Shown here: positions 8,254-49,899 of the stretch, piece after piece
Numbering within the stretch: the stretch's first letter is position 1
How the letters are laid out: each line of letters begins with the position of its first letter
From: Rhodomicrobium vannielii ATCC 17100
GTDB taxonomy: Bacteria > Pseudomonadota > Alphaproteobacteria > Rhizobiales > Rhodomicrobiaceae
DNA length: 64,000 nt
Assembly: GCF_000166055.1 (NCBI RefSeq)
Contig: NC_014664.1
Location: forward strand, 434,001 to 498,000
Direction: 5' to 3'
Position numbers and translations under genes: made by a program
The notes under the pieces: generated by a model
The model's database searches: none
Told to the model about the DNA's origin: nothing
The model's input: only the letters and a program-made list of their open reading frames with translations

Positions 8254-9207
8254 TTCATTGCTCCGATTTTCGCCGGCGGCTGCGCCTGAGCCGTCGCCAG
8301 ATTGTCTTTCGCGTGACCCTGCCGCTGCTGTTTCCCCGCGGTTCCGTTGCACATTCATGATCGTGGCGAAACTTTCTGCAAGGCGCAGATTGGTTTCAAG
8401 GATTTTCACGGTCATGTCTAGGGCAAGCTGGAGGGGGTGAAAGCTGGCCATGGATCAGCTCACGTCGTCTACATGAACATATGGTGCGGCTCCCGTTCCC
8501 CGAATGCCATCTTGCTCGCGCGATCGGTGGCCCTGACGGGCGCAGGCGAGGGCGAGGCAAGGTTGTGCAGCTGGGACAGGACGCATACTCAAGCGTGGTA
8601 ACATCCGGAGGCCGCTACCGCAAATGGTTAACCGTCATTTTTCGCGCGTAGCCGGAAATCGTGATCGCGTTTAGCCGCGTTCATGCCGACGGCGCGGCGT
8701 ATCGCGAGCAATGGACGAGTGCATATCCCGCACCGGCCGCGAAATGGCGCGCGGCGGGTCGTCCTTCCCGTTTCGCCTGCGCTTCTCCACAAAAGGCCAT
8801 CGTGGGTGGGCCCGCTTTGCGGTAACAACGAGACTATTGGCCCGCATTGGCTCTTGCTTGCGCGAATTGTTATAGAAACGGCCGCTGGCAAGAAGATTAA
8901 AATTATAATTATTCTAATTTCAACCTTTAATTATGCATTGACTTTTGGTTTCGTTACTATGTAGCTGTATTCATACGCACATATTTTTAACGCATGCATC
9001 GGACTATCGAGAGGAGAGCCCGCTCTTATGAGTTTCGGAAGTGGAACCTCCACTGCGGTGAGTTTGACATTTGATTGCCATCGCCGAAGGCTCCCATGTC
9101 AAATACCAACCGCACAGGATTCGACGAGTCGCTTGTGCCCCAGAGCATAGCCTCGCGGCAGTTCTTCCCAGCCTTTGACGTCAGCGCGAAACCGTCCGGA
9201 GATAATC
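8254..9207. other. Long non-coding gap with AT-rich promoter-like stretch
   Basis: No convincing gene was found here; short open frames lack family features and ribosome sites. The stretch 8890-8990 is sharply AT-rich compared with its surroundings and precedes the fez-like block, so a promoter is likely there. A hairpin (AGTGGA 9040-9045, TCCACT 9049-9054) and a wider inverted repeat (9063-9103) follow. Confidence 0.5.
9063..9103. promoter_or_regulatory. Inverted repeat TTTGACAT...ATGTCAAA with an FNR-like box
   Basis: TTTGACAT at 9063-9070 is the exact reverse complement of ATGTCAAA at 9096-9103. Inside lies TTGAT-TGCC-ATCGC at 9071-9084, which matches the FNR/FixK consensus TTGAT-N4-ATCAA in 8 of 10 bases. 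It sits about 100 bases before the first gene of the ATPase block. It could be an operator, or simply a copy of the palindromic repeat also seen near 32 kb. Confidence 0.3.
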
Positions 9208-9507
9208 ATGTCCTACGATGACACGCTTTCCAATTTGCTTCACGCCATGCGCCACGGCGACAAGCTTGTGGAGCAGCTTCTGCATGGCGCCCACGGATCG
9301 CCGTTCGATCCCGTGTCGCAGGTTGGCCTTCTGGATCGCGCCACCGTTTCCGACCGGCGTTTCTGGACGGGAGCCGCCATCGGAGCCGCAGCCGTGCTGG
9401 TGGCGGCTGCCGTTCGCAACAAGAGAACGGTGACGATCATGGAGGATGATCCGAAGGCGCCGCTGTCTGACGGCGAGGGACGGCGGAGGTCGAACGGACG
9501 GTATTAA
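9208..9507 (+). CDS. Small single-span membrane protein of the fez-like block
   Basis: A 99-residue protein. The first half is soluble (MSYDDTLSNLLHAMRHGDKL...). One membrane segment lies at about residues 53-71 (FWTGAAIGAAAVLVAAAV), followed by a basic-acidic tail. The ATG at 9208 has GGAG eight bases upstream, and the open frame before it is ignored. I do not recognise a named family. It is the first gene of a four-gene run ending in a P1B-type ATPase, with gaps of 24, 78 and 73 bases. Small hydrophobic proteins of this kind accompany the ATPase in ferrosome gene clusters, so a role in building or shaping that membrane is inferred. Confidence 0.75.
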   Translation: MSYDDTLSNLLHAMRHGDKLVEQLLHGAHGSPFDPVSQVGLLDRATVSDRRFWTGAAIGAAAVLVAAAVRNKRTVTIMEDDPKAPLSDGEGRRRSNGRY

Positions 9508-9531
9508 AGAGAATACCCAAGGAGAAAAATC

Positions 9532-9942
9532 ATGTCGCATAAGCACCATCTTTCCGGCGAGGCTGCGGATGCGGCGCTTCGCTTCGGCGCTTTCGGCGCC
9601 CTCATAAGCGGCGGTATCGTTGCGGGCCAGTCCATTTCGGCGGCGCAGCAGGGTGACAAGTCGGTCCCGCAGGCGGTCACGGATACCCTCGCCGCAGCGA
9701 CGAAAGCCGGTATCGCGGCGGCGGTCGGCGGCGCGGCAGCCGCGGCGGTCGGCGGCCACGGGTTTTCGCGCGTGGCGTCTTTCCTCGCAGGCGCCGCGGC
9801 GGCGGCCTGGGTCATGTCGCCTCCAAGGCGCCCGACGTCGATCTCCGACGCCGCGCAAAACAGGGACGCGCCTTCGCCGAAGAAGAGCGACGACATCATT
9901 CTCGCATCATCGACGCAGGGCGGTAATCCGAAGGCGGTCTGA
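9532..9942 (+). CDS. Small Gly/Ala-rich hydrophobic protein of the fez-like block
   Basis: A 136-residue protein starting MSHKHHLSGEAADAALRFG. Two or three Gly/Ala-rich hydrophobic stretches lie at about residues 17-33 (FGAFGALISGGIVAGQS), 61-80 (GIAAAVGGAAAAAVGG) and 82-95 (VASFLAGAAAAAWV), resembling glycine-zipper membrane helices. A polar tail of about 40 residues follows. The ribosome site AAGGAG lies ten bases before the ATG. It is composed like the small membrane proteins of ferrosome and magnetosome islands, but I cannot assign homology by eye. The His-rich start (HKHH) might bind metal. Confidence 0.75.
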   Translation: MSHKHHLSGEAADAALRFGAFGALISGGIVAGQSISAAQQGDKSVPQAVTDTLAAATKAGIAAAVGGAAAAAVGGHGFSRVASFLAGAAAAAWVMSPPRRPTSISDAAQNRDAPSPKKSDDIILASSTQGGNPKAV

Positions 9943-10020
9943 TCCGCCCGTCCCGTCGCCATCGCACAGGAAAATTCGGTCCCGGACGGCAAACCGACAG
10001 ACTTACGGCAGGAGACATTC

Positions 10021-10569
10021 ATGAGCGATCACAACAACGAAAACAAGACGTACAACGCGCAAGGTCCGAACCCGGCGCAGGCTCCGCAGGGGTGGTATCC
10101 GGGCTACCCGGCTCCGGGGTATGGCGCGCCTTATGGCCACCCCGGCTGGGGTCCGGCTCCGCAGGGTCAGCCGCAGGAACAGGCCGCCCAGCCGCAAGCG
10201 CCGGCCTGGTACGGTCCCGCTCCGGCCTACGGCCCTCATCCGTGGTACGGGCATCACCACCATCCGCATTTCGCGCCCTACGGGTACGGCTATGGCCCGC
10301 AAGCGGCACCCCAGCAGGAAGCCCCGGCGCAGCAGAAAACGAACGGCGGCTTTTTCTCCTCGGGCTTCGACATCCACAACGACGCGCTGGTGAAGGGCGT
10401 CGTGATCGGCGCGGGCCTGACCTACCTCCTGACCAACGAGACGGTGCAGAAGAACCTGATTGGCGCGGCGGTGAAGCTCTGGTCGACGCTTCAGGGCGGT
10501 GTGGAAGAGGTGAAAGAGCGGTTCCGCGACGCCGAAGCCGAGATCCACACGGGGGACAATCACCAGTAA
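10021..10569 (+). CDS. Pro/Gly/Tyr/His-rich protein with C-terminal membrane-associating domain (fez-like block)
   Basis: A 182-residue protein in two parts. Residues 1 to about 110 are low complexity, rich in Pro, Gly, Tyr, Gln and Ala, with repeated PGY/YGP/PAP units and a HHHHPH run near residues 79-84. Residues 112-182 are ordered: FDIHNDALVKGVVIGAGLTY, a hydrophobic helix, TNETVQKNLIGAAVKLW and a charged amphipathic end (VEEVKERFRDAEAEI) that resembles YtxH-type proteins. Its position directly before the ATPase suggests a structural or adaptor role on the same membrane. The His run could bind iron or another metal. Function is inferred from context only. An AGGAG sits seven bases upstream of the ATG. 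Confidence 0.8.
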   Translation: MSDHNNENKTYNAQGPNPAQAPQGWYPGYPAPGYGAPYGHPGWGPAPQGQPQEQAAQPQAPAWYGPAPAYGPHPWYGHHHHPHFAPYGYGYGPQAAPQQEAPAQQKTNGGFFSSGFDIHNDALVKGVVIGAGLTYLLTNETVQKNLIGAAVKLWSTLQGGVEEVKERFRDAEAEIHTGDNHQ

Positions 10570-10642
10570 TCGCCATCGATAATAGCGCCTTGTGCGGAGG
10601 CGGGGAGGCCCCCCGCGCCGTGCTCGTCGGGGGAAACGACGC

Positions 10643-12775
10643 ATGACGATTCGCATTGTGCACGAGACGCCGACGCGGTTGCGGTTCCGGCTCACCGACG
10701 CCGCGACGATGGGGCCGCGCGTGGCGGCGAGCGTCGAATCGCTGCCGGGCGTCACTTCGGTCCGCGTTAACGCGCCTGCGAAAACCCTCGTCGTGCATCA
10801 CGATGGAGACCGGCGCACGCGCACCGGCATTCTCCGCGCAGTCAATCATCCCGCGCCGCCGGATGCCGTGCCGGTCGCAAGCGAGGACGAAGGCCCGGAC
10901 CTTGGCCATGTGTTTGTCTCGGGCGGCATTCTCCTCGCGAGTTTCATCCTTCCGCCGCCGCTCCGCGCGCTCATCTCGGCGGCGAATGTGGCGCCTGTGC
11001 TCGTGCGCGGCGCGCGCAAGCTCGCCAATCGCGGCGTGACCGTCGAAGTGCTCGACGCCATCGCGATCACGCTGCCCGCGTTCAGGCGCGACTGGCGCAC
11101 CGCGAACTTCACGCGCTTCCTGCTCGACCTCGGCGGGCATATCGAGGCCAGCACGTCGGCTCGGTCGGACACGCTGCTCCGCAATCTCCTGAAGGCGCGC
11201 CCGGAAGCCGTCATGATTGAAACCGACGATGGCGCGCTCCGCAGCATCCCCTACGACGAGGTGACCGAAGGCGCGCGCGTCGTCGTCAATACGGGCGACC
11301 GCATCCCGGTGGATGGCGTCGTGCTCTCGGGCAATGCGTGGGTGAACCAGTCGGCCGTAACGGGCGAGAGCATGCCGATTCCGCGCGAGGAGGGCGATGA
11401 AGTGCTGTCCGGCTCCGTCGTCACCGAAGGTCGCCTCGTCATCGTAGCCGAGCGCGTCGGCGACACCACCACCACGGCGCGCATCTCCCGCTATATCCTC
11501 GACGGGCTAACCGATCCATCGGGCATCCAGAGCGAAAGCCATCGCCTCGCCGACCGCCGCGTGTTCATCACGCTCGCTTCGGGCGCAAGCGTCTTCGCCG
11601 CGACGCGCGACTGGCGGCGGCTCGAATCGGTGTTTCTCGTCGACTATTCCTGCGCGGTGAAATTCGGCACGCCCATCGCGGTCAAATCGGCCATGTACCG
11701 CGCGGCGAAAGAGGGGTGCCTCATCAAGAGCGGCCGGTCGCTCGAAACCGTGGGCTCGGTCGATACGGTCGTGTTCGACAAGACGGGCACGCTCACTCAC
11801 AATACGCTGGAAGTGACGGACATTCACCGTCCAACCGACTCGGATCTCGATGACGCGGCGCTTCTCGCGCTCGTCGCGTCGCTCGCCGAGCACACGAGCC
11901 ATCCCGTCGCCGCGGCCGTGGTGGATGTCGCGCGCCGCCGCCATCTTGCGCATATCAGCCACGAAGAGGTTGATTTCCTCGTCGGCCACGGCATCGGCTC
12001 GCACGTCAAGGGCCAGACGATCCGTATCGGCTCGCGCCACTATCTCGAAGAGCATGAAGGCGTCTCTTTCGCGAGCGCGGAAGCGATCATCGAGCGGCTG
12101 GCGGGGGCGGGCAAATCCATGCTGTTCGTCGCGGCGGAAGGCCGCCTCATCGGCGTCATCGGCCTTCGCGACCGGCTTCGCGAGGAGGCGCTGCCCGTGC
12201 TGCGCCAACTCCGCGAGAACGGCGTGAAGTCGATCATCATGATCACCGGCGACCACGAGGCGAAGGCGAAGCAGATCGGCCAGATCCTCGAACTCGACCG
12301 CGTCTATCACGACCAGAAGCCCGAAGATAAGGCGAGCATCATCGAGGCGCTGAAGGCGGAAGGCCGCGTCGTGGCTTTTGTCGGCGACGGTGTCAACGAC
12401 GGCCCGGCGCTGATGGCCGCCCATGTCGGCATCGCCATGCCACGCGCCGCAGACATCGCCCGCGCGACCGCCGACATTCTGCTGCTAGACGACCGGCTCG
12501 ACGGTTTGGCCAAGCTGCGCGGCCTCTCCGGCGAAACGCTGAAGCTCATCCGCTCGAATTTCCGCGCGTCGGTCGGCATAAACTCCGCGATCATGGCGCT
12601 CGCGGTACTCGGCAAGCTGTCGCCCATCGCGACGGCCTTCCTGCACAACGGCACCACCATCGGCATTCTTTTGCGCGCGCTCGCTTCGAACAAGGGGCGG
12701 GAAAAGCCAGCCAACGCTCGCCTTGCGCCGCTGCGGAAGCTGCCTGCGCCCTCACGTCATTCCACGATGAACTGA
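10643..12775 (+). CDS. Divergent P1B-type ATPase, FezB-like (candidate ferrosome iron pump)
   Basis: A 710-residue P-type ATPase. Its actuator loop has TGES (Thr240), the phosphorylation site is DKTGT (Asp379), the nucleotide domain has HTSHPVAAAV, and the hinge is GDGVNDGPAL (near 580). Two features are unusual. The N-terminus has no CxxC metal domain but a basic PTRLRFRL stretch. The metal-site helix reads DYSCAVKFGTP (Ser336-Cys337-Ala338) where copper and zinc pumps have CPC or similar. Hydrophobic segments are few and short. These traits agree with the P1B-6 subgroup to which the ferrosome protein FezB belongs (known from Rhodopseudomonas palustris and others), so iron loading of an internal compartment is the inferred role. 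The ATG at 10643 follows a GGGGGA ribosome site; an upstream start would add 17 Arg-rich residues. Confidence 0.85.
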   Translation: MTIRIVHETPTRLRFRLTDAATMGPRVAASVESLPGVTSVRVNAPAKTLVVHHDGDRRTRTGILRAVNHPAPPDAVPVASEDEGPDLGHVFVSGGILLASFILPPPLRALISAANVAPVLVRGARKLANRGVTVEVLDAIAITLPAFRRDWRTANFTRFLLDLGGHIEASTSARSDTLLRNLLKARPEAVMIETDDGALRSIPYDEVTEGARVVVNTGDRIPVDGVVLSGNAWVNQSAVTGESMPIPREEGDEVLSGSVVTEGRLVIVAERVGDTTTTARISRYILDGLTDPSGIQSESHRLADRRVFITLASGASVFAATRDWRRLESVFLVDYSCAVKFGTPIAVKSAMYRAAKEGCLIKSGRSLETVGSVDTVVFDKTGTLTHNTLEVTDIHRPTDSDLDDAALLALVASLAEHTSHPVAAAVVDVARRRHLAHISHEEVDFLVGHGIGSHVKGQTIRIGSRHYLEEHEGVSFASAEAIIERLAGAGKSMLFVAAEGRLIGVIGLRDRLREEALPVLRQLRENGVKSIIMITGDHEAKAKQIGQILELDRVYHDQKPEDKASIIEALKAEGRVVAFVGDGVNDGPALMAAHVGIAMPRAADIARATADILLLDDRLDGLAKLRGLSGETLKLIRSNFRASVGINSAIMALAVLGKLSPIATAFLHNGTTIGILLRALASNKGREKPANARLAPLRKLPAPSRHSTMN

Positions 12776-12845
12776 ACGGGCGAGAGGAACCGGCGCGCCT
12801 GCATCACCTCGTGACTGAGCGCGGGCCCCGCCTTCAAGCGTTTAA

Positions 12846-12874
12846 CCGATCGGACTGCAATGCAATCCGATCGG
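12846..12874. terminator. Long inverted repeat between convergent genes
   Basis: CCGATCGGACTGCA at 12846-12859 pairs with TGCAATCCGATCGG at 12861-12874 with one mismatch and a one-base centre. It lies in the 143-base gap between the ATPase and the convergent ssuA-like gene, so a bidirectional terminator is likely. The core CCGATCGG is itself palindromic, so a protein-binding site is the alternative. Confidence 0.5.
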
Positions 12875-12918
12875 AACGATCTTCAAACGGATGCTACCGT
12901 CGATGTCGGGTCGGACGG

Positions 12919-13875
12919 CTACGAGCCGCGGTGCCAGATATCGGCGCTTTTCACGTCGACCGGCTTCGGCAACAATTGCTCCTTGAAGAAGGTGTCGGCG
13001 ATGACCTGCTGATCCACGAGGTTGTTCGTCGAGGGCAGACGCACATCGTAGCTGCGGCGGCCGTTCGCCTGCTCGATGATCTTCGTATCGAGGCCCCAGA
13101 TCGGCTTCAAGAGCTCGGCGGCGGCCTGCGGATTGTCCTTCACCCACTTTCCGGCGGCGTGAAGCTCATCGAAGATGACCGCAAGCACGTCGGGCCGTGC
13201 GGTGGCGAAAGCCGTCGCGGCGAGATAGTAGCGTTGATAGAGCGCCACGTCCTTGCCGTCCGCCAGCACGCGCGCGCCCGCCTGGATCTCACCGGCCGAG
13301 AGATAGGGATCCCACGTCACCCACGCATCGACGCTGCCTCGCTCGAAAGCCGCGCGGCAATCGGCTTGTCCCAGATAGACCGGCTGGATGTCCTTGAAGG
13401 TCAATCCCGCCTTTGCCAGCGTCGCAAGGAGAAGATAATGGCCGCCCGTGCCTTTGGTGAGCGCGACCCGCTTGCCCTTGAGCTCGGCTGGCGATTTCAG
13501 CTCCGAGGTGGCGGGGATGAGGATCGCCTGCGCGGTCGGCGACGGTGCTTCCTGCGCGACGTAGATCATTTTTGCGCCAGCGGCTTGCGCGAAGATCGGC
13601 ACGGTGTCGGCCACATCCGCGGTTAGGTCGATCGCTCCGATGTTCAGCGCTTCGAGCATCGGCGGCCCGGAGGTGAACTCGTTCCACTTCACGCTCACGC
13701 CGATTTTCTGAAGTGCGGCGTCGAGCTTGCCTTGTGTCTTCAGCACGGTGATCAGCGTCGACGATTTCTGGAAACCGATGCGCACGGTATCTGGCTTGTC
13801 TTCGGCGGCTGCCGGTGCCTGCCATCCGAAGACGACGCAGGAAGCGGCAAGCAGCAGGGAACTCAGGAAATGCAT
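12919..13875 (-). CDS. ssuA: Aliphatic sulfonate/nitrate-type ABC transporter substrate-binding protein
   Basis: A 318-residue periplasmic binding protein of the SsuA/NMT1 type. It has a signal peptide of about 24 residues ending APAAAE, then TVRIGFQKSSTLITVLKTQG, the typical first strand and helix. LKGKRVALTKGTGGHYLLL and AWVTWDPYLSAGE follow in the second lobe. It would deliver the substrate to SsuC. Four bases separate it from ssuB. The substrate is most likely an organic sulfonate, but no ssuD/ssuE monooxygenase gene is near, so taurine or another organosulfur compound remains possible. Confidence 0.88.
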   Translation of the reverse strand: MHFLSSLLLAASCVVFGWQAPAAAEDKPDTVRIGFQKSSTLITVLKTQGKLDAALQKIGVSVKWNEFTSGPPMLEALNIGAIDLTADVADTVPIFAQAAGAKMIYVAQEAPSPTAQAILIPATSELKSPAELKGKRVALTKGTGGHYLLLATLAKAGLTFKDIQPVYLGQADCRAAFERGSVDAWVTWDPYLSAGEIQAGARVLADGKDVALYQRYYLAATAFATARPDVLAVIFDELHAAGKWVKDNPQAAAELLKPIWGLDTKIIEQANGRRSYDVRLPSTNNLVDQQVIADTFFKEQLLPKPVDVKSADIWHRGS

Positions 13876-24681: not shown

Positions 24682-26316
24682 CTACGCCGCCAGTTGCAAG
24701 CCGGGCTGCTTCCATTCCCAGGGCAGCAGCTCATGGAGTCGGCTTTGCGGCTGGCCTGCGATGCGGGCGAGCACATCGGCCAGCCAAGCCATCGGATCGA
24801 TGCCGTTGAGTTTGGCCGTCATGATCATCGTCATCATAAAGGCGGCCCGGTCGGCGCCGCGATCTGAACCGGCGAAGAGCCACGACTTTCTTCCGAGCGC
24901 AAAACCTCTCAGCGCTCGTTCGGCCGAGTTGTTGCTCAGGCAGATGCGGCCGTCGCCAAGGAAAGCGGCGAACCGATCCCAGCGCTTGAGCAGATAATCG
25001 ATGGGCCTGGCGACGGAAGCCGAGCGCGACAATCGCGAGCGCTCCTCGCCAAGCGAGGTTTTCAGATCGGCCAGAAGCGGCGCGCTTTGCTTCTGGCGCA
25101 CGCGCAGGCGCTCGCTGGCGGGAAGGCCGTTGATGGAGCGCTCGATGTCGAACAGCGCGTCGATGCGCTTGACCGCTTCCAGCGCAATCGGGGAGATGGC
25201 CGGCGCCTGTTTGCCGCGCTTCGCGTTGGCGGCGATGTCAGCCAGTTCGAAGAACTGGCGCCTGGCGTGCGCCCAGCACAGCGCCGAGACGATGGCGCCT
25301 TTTTCGCGCGCCGGATCGTAAAGCCCGTTATAGCCGCTATAGGCGTCGGCCTGCAAAATGCCGGCGAAGTCTCGAAGATGGCTCTCGGGATGCTCCTGCC
25401 TTCGGTCTCGCGAAGCGTAGTAAAGCGCGGCCGGCGGCGCGGTCCCGCCAAAAGGGCGATCGTCTCTGACATAGGTCCAGATGCGGCCGGTGACTGTCTT
25501 GCCTTTCGCCAGGATCGGCACCGTCGTGTCGTCGCCAAACAACCGTTCGGCCGAAAGAACATGGGCCTCGATCAGCGCCTGGAGCGGTTGCAGCGCCGCC
25601 ATGCAGGACCCAACCTGATCGGCCAGCGTCGAGACGGAAAGTTCGACGCCTTCGCGCGCATACCGCTCGCTTTGCCGGTTGAGAGGCTGGTGCTGGCCGA
25701 ACTTCTCGAACAAGATCATGGCCAAAAGGCCCGGCCCGGCAAAACCGCGCGGCGTTGCATGAAAGGGCGCCGGCGGTTGCGCGATCGCCTCGCAGCACCG
25801 GCAGGAGAACTTCTCGCGCACCGTTTGGATGACTTTCCAGCGGCGCGGAACAACCTCGAGCGTCTCGGTGACGTCCTCGCCGAGCTTCGACAGCTTCGTC
25901 GAGCCGCAAGACGGACAACATGTCGGCGCCGGGAGCACCACGCGCTCGCGCGGCAGATGCGCCGGGAAAGGCTTGCGCGATGGATGCTTGCGCGTAGAGG
26001 ATGGCGTGCCTTGCGTCCGGGCTGTGGCTGTCTCGGCGAGAAGCTCGTCCTCGGCCGCGGCTGTCTCCAGCTCTTCGAGCTGAAGCTCCATCTGCTCCAG
26101 GAGCCGCGCCTTGTGCTCCGAGCGGCTACCGTAAAGCACCCGCCGCAGCTTCTCGATCTCGAGCCTCAGATGAGCGATCAGCGCGTCCGTGCTGGATGTC
26201 GCCGCGCGAGCGCGAGCCGCAACGGCCTCGGCGGAAAGGCGGGCGGCGCGCTCGGCGAGGATCATCGCATGCGCGGCGGCAAGGTCGGAAGGAAGAGCGT
26301 CAAGCGGCGTGGTCAC
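24682..26316 (-). CDS. tnpC: IS66 family transposase TnpC (copy 1)
   Basis: A 544-residue DDE transposase with a GTG start. It has an N-terminal leucine-rich coiled coil (LRLEIEKLRRVLYGSRSEHKARLLEQM), a zinc-finger-like CCPSCGSTKLSKLGEDVTETLEV, a second Cys pair (KFSCRCCEAI) and the catalytic core. The core includes FGDDTTVPIL, LQADAYSGYNGLY, CWAHARRQFFELAD and ISNNSAERALR-type (LSNNSAERALRGFALGRKSW) motifs, and it ends LLPWEWKQPG. Its translation is the same as that of copy 2, so it looks intact. Confidence 0.95.
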   Translation of the reverse strand: MTTPLDALPSDLAAAHAMILAERAARLSAEAVAARARAATSSTDALIAHLRLEIEKLRRVLYGSRSEHKARLLEQMELQLEELETAAAEDELLAETATARTQGTPSSTRKHPSRKPFPAHLPRERVVLPAPTCCPSCGSTKLSKLGEDVTETLEVVPRRWKVIQTVREKFSCRCCEAIAQPPAPFHATPRGFAGPGLLAMILFEKFGQHQPLNRQSERYAREGVELSVSTLADQVGSCMAALQPLQALIEAHVLSAERLFGDDTTVPILAKGKTVTGRIWTYVRDDRPFGGTAPPAALYYASRDRRQEHPESHLRDFAGILQADAYSGYNGLYDPAREKGAIVSALCWAHARRQFFELADIAANAKRGKQAPAISPIALEAVKRIDALFDIERSINGLPASERLRVRQKQSAPLLADLKTSLGEERSRLSRSASVARPIDYLLKRWDRFAAFLGDGRICLSNNSAERALRGFALGRKSWLFAGSDRGADRAAFMMTMIMTAKLNGIDPMAWLADVLARIAGQPQSRLHELLPWEWKQPGLQLAA

Positions 26317-48264: not shown

Positions 48265-49899
48265 GTGACCACGCCGCTTGACGCTCTTCCTTCCGACCTT
48301 GCCGCCGCGCATGCGATGATCCTCGCCGAGCGCGCCGCCCGCCTTTCCGCCGAGGCCGTTGCGGCTCGCGCTCGCGCGGCGACATCCAGCACGGACGCGC
48401 TGATCGCTCATCTGAGGCTCGAGATCGAGAAGCTGCGGCGGGTGCTTTACGGTAGCCGCTCGGAGCACAAGGCGCGGCTCCTGGAGCAGATGGAGCTTCA
48501 GCTCGAAGAGCTGGAGACAGCCGCGGCCGAGGACGAGCTTCTCGCCGAGACAGCCACAGCCCGGACGCAAGGCACGCCATCCTCTACGCGCAAGCATCCA
48601 TCGCGCAAGCCTTTCCCGGCGCATCTGCCGCGCGAGCGCGTGGTGCTCCCGGCGCCGACATGTTGTCCGTCTTGCGGCTCGACGAAGCTGTCGAAGCTCG
48701 GCGAGGACGTCACCGAGACGCTCGAGGTTGTTCCGCGCCGCTGGAAAGTCATCCAAACGGTGCGCGAGAAGTTCTCCTGCCGGTGCTGCGAGGCGATCGC
48801 GCAACCGCCGGCGCCCTTTCATGCAACGCCGCGCGGTTTTGCCGGGCCGGGCCTTTTGGCCATGATCTTGTTCGAGAAGTTCGGCCAGCACCAGCCTCTC
48901 AACCGGCAAAGCGAGCGGTATGCGCGCGAAGGCGTCGAACTTTCCGTCTCGACGCTGGCCGATCAGGTTGGGTCCTGCATGGCGGCGCTGCAACCGCTCC
49001 AGGCGCTGATCGAGGCCCATGTTCTTTCGGCCGAACGGTTGTTTGGCGACGACACGACGGTGCCGATCCTGGCGAAAGGCAAGACAGTCACCGGCCGCAT
49101 CTGGACCTATGTCAGAGACGATCGCCCTTTTGGCGGGACCGCGCCGCCGGCCGCGCTTTACTACGCTTCGCGAGACCGAAGGCAGGAGCATCCCGAGAGC
49201 CATCTTCGAGACTTCGCCGGCATTTTGCAGGCCGACGCCTATAGCGGCTATAACGGGCTTTACGATCCGGCGCGCGAAAAAGGCGCCATCGTCTCGGCGC
49301 TGTGCTGGGCGCACGCCAGGCGCCAGTTCTTCGAACTGGCTGACATCGCCGCCAACGCGAAGCGCGGCAAACAGGCGCCGGCCATCTCCCCGATTGCGCT
49401 GGAAGCGGTCAAGCGCATCGACGCGCTGTTCGACATCGAGCGCTCCATCAACGGCCTTCCCGCCAGCGAGCGCCTGCGCGTGCGCCAGAAGCAAAGCGCG
49501 CCGCTTCTGGCCGATCTGAAAACCTCGCTTGGCGAGGAGCGCTCGCGATTGTCGCGCTCGGCTTCCGTCGCCAGGCCCATCGATTATCTGCTCAAGCGCT
49601 GGGATCGGTTCGCCGCTTTCCTTGGCGACGGCCGCATCTGCCTGAGCAACAACTCGGCCGAACGAGCGCTGAGAGGTTTTGCGCTCGGAAGAAAGTCGTG
49701 GCTCTTCGCCGGTTCAGATCGCGGCGCCGACCGGGCCGCCTTTATGATGACGATGATCATGACGGCCAAACTCAACGGCATCGATCCGATGGCTTGGCTG
49801 GCCGATGTGCTCGCCCGCATCGCAGGCCAGCCGCAAAGCCGACTCCATGAGCTGCTGCCCTGGGAATGGAAGCAGCCCGGCTTGCAACTGGCGGCGTAG
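48265..49899 (+). CDS. tnpC: IS66 family transposase TnpC (copy 2)
   Basis: A 544-residue DDE transposase, GTG start, with the same translation as the copy 1 protein, including the zinc-finger CCPSCGSTKL, FGDDTTVPIL, CWAHARRQFFE and LSNNSAERALRG. It appears intact. Confidence 0.95.
   Translation: MTTPLDALPSDLAAAHAMILAERAARLSAEAVAARARAATSSTDALIAHLRLEIEKLRRVLYGSRSEHKARLLEQMELQLEELETAAAEDELLAETATARTQGTPSSTRKHPSRKPFPAHLPRERVVLPAPTCCPSCGSTKLSKLGEDVTETLEVVPRRWKVIQTVREKFSCRCCEAIAQPPAPFHATPRGFAGPGLLAMILFEKFGQHQPLNRQSERYAREGVELSVSTLADQVGSCMAALQPLQALIEAHVLSAERLFGDDTTVPILAKGKTVTGRIWTYVRDDRPFGGTAPPAALYYASRDRRQEHPESHLRDFAGILQADAYSGYNGLYDPAREKGAIVSALCWAHARRQFFELADIAANAKRGKQAPAISPIALEAVKRIDALFDIERSINGLPASERLRVRQKQSAPLLADLKTSLGEERSRLSRSASVARPIDYLLKRWDRFAAFLGDGRICLSNNSAERALRGFALGRKSWLFAGSDRGADRAAFMMTMIMTAKLNGIDPMAWLADVLARIAGQPQSRLHELLPWEWKQPGLQLAA

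Follow-up and report, generated by a model that had tools for sequence, protein, structure and literature searches.

Ferrosomes are recently described iron organelles whose small proteins have roles that are still poorly understood; P1B-6 is the group of ATPases that contains FezB. Six fez genes of Rhodopseudomonas palustris are reported to make ferrosomes (PMC12016538). In Clostridioides difficile, both FezB and the membrane protein FezA are required according to a review (PMC12574912), and a further paper describes FezC as a DUF4405-related cytochrome (PMC10979944). Here we analyzed 64,000 nucleotides of Rhodomicrobium vannielii ATCC 17100 (NC_014664.1, positions 434,001 to 498,000; hereafter the window), in which four genes, designated g1, g2, g3 and the ATPase gene, occupy positions 9208-12775. 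We consider it very probable that this block is a compact four-gene ferrosome (fez) operon of Rhodomicrobium, in which organelle formation, iron transport and iron regulation are putative functions assigned by homology.

By reading of the open reading frames, the four genes are co-directional on the + strand, and they correspond to the initial annotation of two small hydrophobic proteins, a Pro/Gly/Tyr/His-rich protein with a membrane-type tail and a P1B-type ATPase (Table 1). The gaps between them are, in order, 24, 78 and 73 nucleotides, and a GGAG-containing sequence precedes the starts of g1, g2 and g3; the longest ATPase frame opens at 10592 (GTG), and the start common to relatives is the ATG at 10643. 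The ratio of nonsynonymous to synonymous substitution rates (dN/dS) is 0.08-0.22 for all four genes (12 gene-by-pair comparisons, three Rhodomicrobium genomes), which look coding and under purifying selection. The four-gene order is kept in four of five Rhodomicrobium genomes, with ATPases that match at E 1e-90 or better (98% identity in Rhodomicrobium udaipurense), and no ATPase match was found at 1e-90 in the fifth, which is 88% complete.

The ATPase matches TIGR01525 at 455.8 bits. Its N-terminal HMA-like domain, detected at residues 27-59 below the HMA cut-off, contains RLRFR, and, as had been annotated, the protein carries neither CxxC nor CPC; it has two cysteines (C337 and C359), the membrane site DYSCAVK and the further motifs DKTGT and HNGTT. 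A maximum-likelihood tree was built from 103 extracted ATPases by a quick method without bootstrap, with some outgroup rows on long branches. Eight rows (seven near-copies and the non-P1B paralogue L005) had been removed beforehand, and L028 and L070 are absent, as neither gave a single frame with the required motifs. All 34 rows with a DYSC, DYAC or DFSC site fall on one side of a branch with a Shimodaira–Hasegawa-like approximate likelihood ratio (SH-aLRT) support of 98. Inside this clade are the window ATPase, Rhodopseudomonas-type rows and rows from Desulfarculaceae, Desulfovibrionaceae (Mailhella), Lachnospiraceae and Spirochaetales; outside it are the CPC pumps and three P1B paralogues from the same genome as the window (L002, L003 and L004). 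The suggestion of a fez-like cluster thus held in the P1B phylogeny proposed for checking it: the ATPase lies away from the CPC pumps and in one group with rows from Rhodopseudomonas, Desulfovibrionaceae and Lachnospiraceae; the small proteins, too, are kept beside this ATPase. By its clade with these rows, which stand in the comparison in place of a verified FezB sequence, the ATPase probably belongs to the FezB group.

At E 1e-95, the ATPase finds matches in 15 of 397 genomes of the order, one of them (G471, L130) outside the clade, and in 16 of 391 genomes of one family, four of which (L156-L159) show about 34-36% identity with coverage of about residues 111-681. The plasmid search at E 1e-60 gave 75 matching records, of which 21 cover 80% or more of the query, and a scan of named genome contigs with the ATPase retained the best 80 loci. 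A neighboring set of proteins was also observed: the P1B-like ATPases of L031, L033, L034, L038, L071, L086 and L130 have D-x-(G/M)-T-G-(I/V/L)-R replacing the cysteine site; joined by L061 and L090, these proteins are sister to the fez-type clade. Those of L034 and L130 are preceded by small hydrophobic proteins of their own, and the seven possibly constitute a further metal-handling family.

The comparison with Rhodopseudomonas depends on identification of the genus. We assigned genus g437 (G939, G966 and G897) to Rhodopseudomonas on the PufM of G939, whose best match among solved chains is 6z5r_M (706.6 bits; next chain 558.4), 6z5r presumably being from R. palustris. A second candidate, genus g16 (G483 and G448, both with an apparent six-gene cluster, and a congener with no match), was rejected, as its family has only three genomes in the collection; it was also ruled out by a PufC-like cytochrome after pufM (read by eye) and by a congener without a reaction-centre match. 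In four genomes of the genus taken as Rhodopseudomonas (L160-L163), the cluster contains two HMA-like genes, g2, g3 and the ATPase gene, and in L160 and L162 the gene maps show one further small membrane protein, giving six genes, in agreement with the six fez genes reported for R. palustris (PMC12016538). A FUR-family gene lies upstream of the cluster in L161 (Pfam 2.8e-20). A further genome of this genus, G950 (L164, G950:C15:25000-39000), has the window form g1-g2-g3-ATPase, immediately preceded by feo genes: feoA and feoC, which Pfam confirms, and a feoB-like frame. Its ATPase, the single match at 1e-95, is 69% identical to that of the window, which suggests that the usual six-gene cluster was replaced by transfer. 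Annotated FeoA and TonB-dependent receptors flank a Cereibacter cluster, and an iron ABC transporter flanks an Azospirillum cluster.

The small proteins were followed with g1, g2 and g3 profiles in 41 related loci, chosen by hand and including several near relatives. As the g1 and g3 profiles overlap, each hit was assigned by its higher score; frames of more than 420 residues were omitted from the table of loci, and the g3 of L124 was thereby missed. The Rhodomicrobium loci L006, L007, L008 and L021, which are short or duplicates, were not included in the profile pool, and the L132 row of alignment A2 opens a few codons before the start. Beside the ATPase gene, g2 was found in 31, g3 in 35 and g1 in 25 of the 41 loci, with at least two of the three in 35; g2 was not found there in ten (L167, L168, L169, L170, L127, L035, L040, L030, L070 and L028). 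The full set occurs in a Desulfarculaceae as well as in alpha-, gamma- and epsilon-proteobacteria, and a betaproteobacterium has g2 with g3. The partners are therefore conserved beside the same ATPase, and not with unrelated systems only. The initial annotation had regarded them as unlike described ones, a view that these counts and the presence of g2 and g3 in the Rhodopseudomonas clusters do not support; the unusual feature of the window cluster is its missing HMA-like genes, not partner novelty. Because HMA-like genes lie within the examined stretch in 25 of the 31 g2-bearing loci but at none of the four Rhodomicrobium loci, the Rhodomicrobium cluster is a reduced form, with four genes versus six in R. 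palustris. The other two g2 loci without such a gene, L023 and L025, have short flanks on at least one side.

Among the partners, g1 and g3 are related to each other, and g1 is the short form of a small protein with a Pro/His/Gly-rich N-terminus found in many related clusters. Residues 1-108 of g3 include 22 Pro, 15 Gly, 11 Tyr and 8 His; this N-terminus is modelled without structure, and helices follow at 121-138 and 140-178, with a predicted local distance difference test (pLDDT) score of about 80 over 121-160, 65 by 171-180 and a mean of 56. The g2 model has three predicted helices (9-39, 45-72 and 78-95) and a mean pLDDT of 61, and both models were too poor for fold searches. As to copy number, L121 (3632-8089; G483) and L122 (G448) each carry two g2 copies, which in L121 sit around a Gly/Gln-rich g1 of 246 residues; g2 has duplicated in this small phototrophic family. 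In addition, an annotated DUF2202 protein lies within the fez-type cluster of L020 (3339-4022), on a 133-kb Arcobacter plasmid from chicken meat.

Profile comparisons strongly indicate that g2 is homologous to MamC. Among 22 g2 proteins (window included, some near relatives), 16 match the NCBIfam MamC profile at E up to 1, the best at 5.6e-15, whereas none of the other families among 18950 matches more than two of the 22. Searched singly, seven of nine g2 proteins match at 0.0011 to 5.6e-15 and two do not, and two more match at 3.5e-4 and 4.6e-5. The window protein itself scores 25.7 bits (E 1.1e-5, profile positions 7-84 of 97), far below the equivalog cut-off of 100 bits, and the best family member seen reached 55.4; on these scores, g2 is MamC-like, not MamC. 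For the reverse search, a profile was built from the 22 g2 proteins alone, excluding MamC; it detected MamC over about 90 residues at 53.3 bits (E 1.2e-14), and the MamC sequence used was checked at 146.7 bits against the MamC model. It is very unlikely that these matches reflect shared Ala/Gly-rich hydrophobic composition and not common descent. Such an origin would fit the low score of the window protein, the lack of a MamC match at E 1 in six of 22 family members and the lack of one at E 0.1 in a Rhodopseudomonas g2. It would also fit the 10.8-bit bias correction of the reverse search, and the shuffles retain composition and not hydrophobic pattern, so that they are not the hardest possible control. 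However, the 53.3 bits are already net of that correction and the best of 4600 shuffles reached 13.7 bits, none of ten shuffled g2 proteins matches MamC, and neither does any of seven other small proteins from these clusters.

According to two sources, MamC has two transmembrane helices joined by a helical loop, and its Glu66 and Asp70 match the iron spacing in magnetite (PMC7604359, PMC6584501). Of the two corresponding positions, 12 of 29 g2 proteins have an acidic residue at the first, 9 at the second and only 5 at both, and the acidic pair was therefore rejected as a shared g2/MamC signature; the window g2 has Gln and Asp there, so that it lacks the pair. In this comparison, we assumed from our own reading of the loop that Glu66 and Asp70 are E45 and D49 of the MamC sequence used. 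In Alphaproteobacteria, true MamC was not reached, four of 385 genomes (that of the window included) matching at E 0.01 and none over the cut-off. The g2 gene is not within a magnetosome gene cluster and precedes the fezB-like gene, no genome-wide search for other mam genes having been made. Against solved structures, the g2 profile found nothing credible (best E 0.023, designed proteins). No mention of the g2-MamC relation was found in the accessible literature on MamC with ferrosomes, Rhodopseudomonas or homologues, a coverage outside which the primary ferrosome papers lie.

The direct results are gene content, order, conservation, selection, ATPase clade and g2-MamC homology. By homology, a mechanism may be proposed in which the small membrane proteins g1, g2 and g3 would delimit a vesicle derived from the cytoplasmic membrane and give it its shape. 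Fe(II) would be driven into the vesicle by the FezB-type ATPase, which has an R-rich HMA-like domain and carries D-Y-S-C where copper and zinc pumps have CPC, and the iron would be held there as mineral. For its part, g2 may serve as a membrane-integral scaffold of the vesicle, its short polar turn facing the lumen.

Several observations weigh against the assignment as a ferrosome operon. It was made by comparison with congeners in place of verified FezA, FezB or FezC sequences, and no iron gene was found adjoining the window cluster, whose neighbors were read by eye. Four ferritin-family matches over cut-off occur in the same genome, and ferrosomes would thus not be its only possible iron store. 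The inverted repeat upstream of g1 that resembles an Irr-type iron control element (ICE) is no better than chance, with 0.46 such sites expected in 64 kb and at least one in 37 of 100 shuffles. Furthermore, HMA-like genes were not found beside the four Rhodomicrobium clusters, with flanks of at least 4.9 kb.

Some of these observations would suit other explanations. P1B ATPases are mostly efflux pumps, and the locus could encode a plain plasma-membrane exporter of Fe(II) or another metal, modulated by the small proteins and with no vesicle; an organelle is not visible in sequence, and no adjoining gene ties the cluster to iron. We nevertheless find this unlikely, since the clade includes the ATPase of the Rhodopseudomonas six-gene cluster, reported to make ferrosomes (PMC12016538), and two or more small proteins beside the pump at most of the 41 loci are more than efflux should need. 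A degenerate fez remnant that has lost its HMA-like genes, makes no ferrosomes and retains residual pump activity only would account for the absence of these genes beside the Rhodomicrobium clusters, in contrast to most g2 loci. It would also account for the lack of a PF19991 (HMA_2) match at E 1e-3 in the genomes of the window and R. udaipurense, a model so weak even in known positives (3.1e-4 in one) that a diverged copy could escape it. Such decay is extremely unlikely given four intact genes under purifying selection; moreover, the HMA partner may be dispensable, since the components that the review gives as required in C. difficile are FezA and FezB (PMC12574912). A reduced ferrosome operon remains our preferred explanation.

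Table 1. Features of the candidate fez locus of R. vannielii (positions in the window)
Feature	Position	Strand	Description
ICE-like site	8902..8918	+	possible Irr-type (ICE) inverted repeat ATTATAATTATTCTAAT; 3 mismatches to the Irr consensus; inside conserved block; weak
g1	9208..9507	+	99 aa; single hydrophobic segment FWTGAAIGAAAVLVAAAV
g2	9532..9942	+	136 aa; Ala/Gly-rich membrane protein, MamC-like
g3	10021..10569	+	182 aa; Pro/Gly/Tyr/His-rich N-terminus, then hydrophobic helix and charged helical tail EEVKERFRDAEAE
FezB-like P1B ATPase	10643..12775	+	710 aa

Upstream of g1, an AT-rich block of about 70 nucleotides is conserved among four Rhodomicrobium genomes, and the ICE-like site within it gives a hint only of iron regulation. 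In the 400 nucleotides before the window g1, nothing better than five mismatches to a Fur box was found, and a sigma-70 scan of 8450-13000 returned a single site, inside the ATPase gene. The distance from the conserved block to g1 (8980-9207) varies among Rhodomicrobium genomes: the window and L133 have a longer stretch there than do L131 and L132. Read by eye, the upstream neighbor encodes pyruvate phosphate dikinase and the downstream neighbor is a nitrate/sulfonate-type ABC transporter set; both are on the opposite strand, so that the four genes stand alone. Elsewhere in the window, 25188-25409 and 49172-49393 are two of ten identically scoring genome copies of a stretch within a 169-aa frame, which is probably an insertion sequence.

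These results lead us to propose tentatively, at somewhat less than even confidence, that one core family of membrane proteins is common to ferrosomes and magnetosomes. Under this proposal, g2 and MamC would derive from one organelle-membrane protein with a lumen-facing turn touching the iron mineral; a ferrosome component may have passed to magnetosomes, or vice versa, and the acidic pair would be a late specialization. The Rhodomicrobium genes would then be the smallest set in proteobacteria that suffices for a ferrosome. As a four-gene form occurring naturally in a purple phototroph that can be cultivated, the cluster is a candidate minimal system for reconstitution. The relation to MamC, the part that a specialist would not expect, ties two iron organelles together via a common protein family, gives a testable function for an unannotated ferrosome protein and offers a possible source for an abundant magnetosome protein in magnetosome evolution.

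Compared with the described systems, the locus resembles each in part. A possible counterpart of FezC is present in L022, with HMA_2 and a sub-threshold DUF4405 signal, and in L020, with a sub-threshold DUF4405 signal alone; two single-sequence searches of the window found no counterpart of either type, and the rest of the genome was not searched for a DUF4405-only protein. The small proteins before the ATPase gene in L030 (Lachnospiraceae), L070 (Ruminococcus), L035 (Mailhella) and L028 (Duodenibacillus) match DUF6110 over the Pfam cut-off and were drawn in by an iterated g3 profile, which then includes them. These proteins are small, with a hydrophobic segment, and lie shortly before the ATPase gene, the place that g3 holds; unlike them, g3 itself has no Pfam match and a long Pro/Gly/Tyr/His-rich N-terminus. 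The ATPases of L030 and L035 are in the tree clade, whereas L028 and L070 are not in the tree, and equating the DUF6110 proteins with FezA is a guess.

The genus g398 (G692, G821 and G850), probably Blastochloris in our view, and G950 have g1-g2-g3-ATPase as in the window, with ATPases 69-71% identical, and differ in an HMA-like gene directly upstream of g1 in each, which none of the four Rhodomicrobium loci has. Judged via congeners, the fez operon of R. palustris CGA009 (RPA2333-2338) has its ATPase in the same clade as that of the window, and its ATPase gene is immediately preceded by g2 and g3, ordered as in the window. The ATPases of the Rhodopseudomonas six-gene loci are 44-45% identical to that of the window, and these loci have two HMA-like genes and an extra small membrane protein but give no g1 match, whereas the window has g1 and none of those. 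With MamC (Mms13), a magnetosome membrane protein, the g2 family shares colinear homology over about 90 residues.

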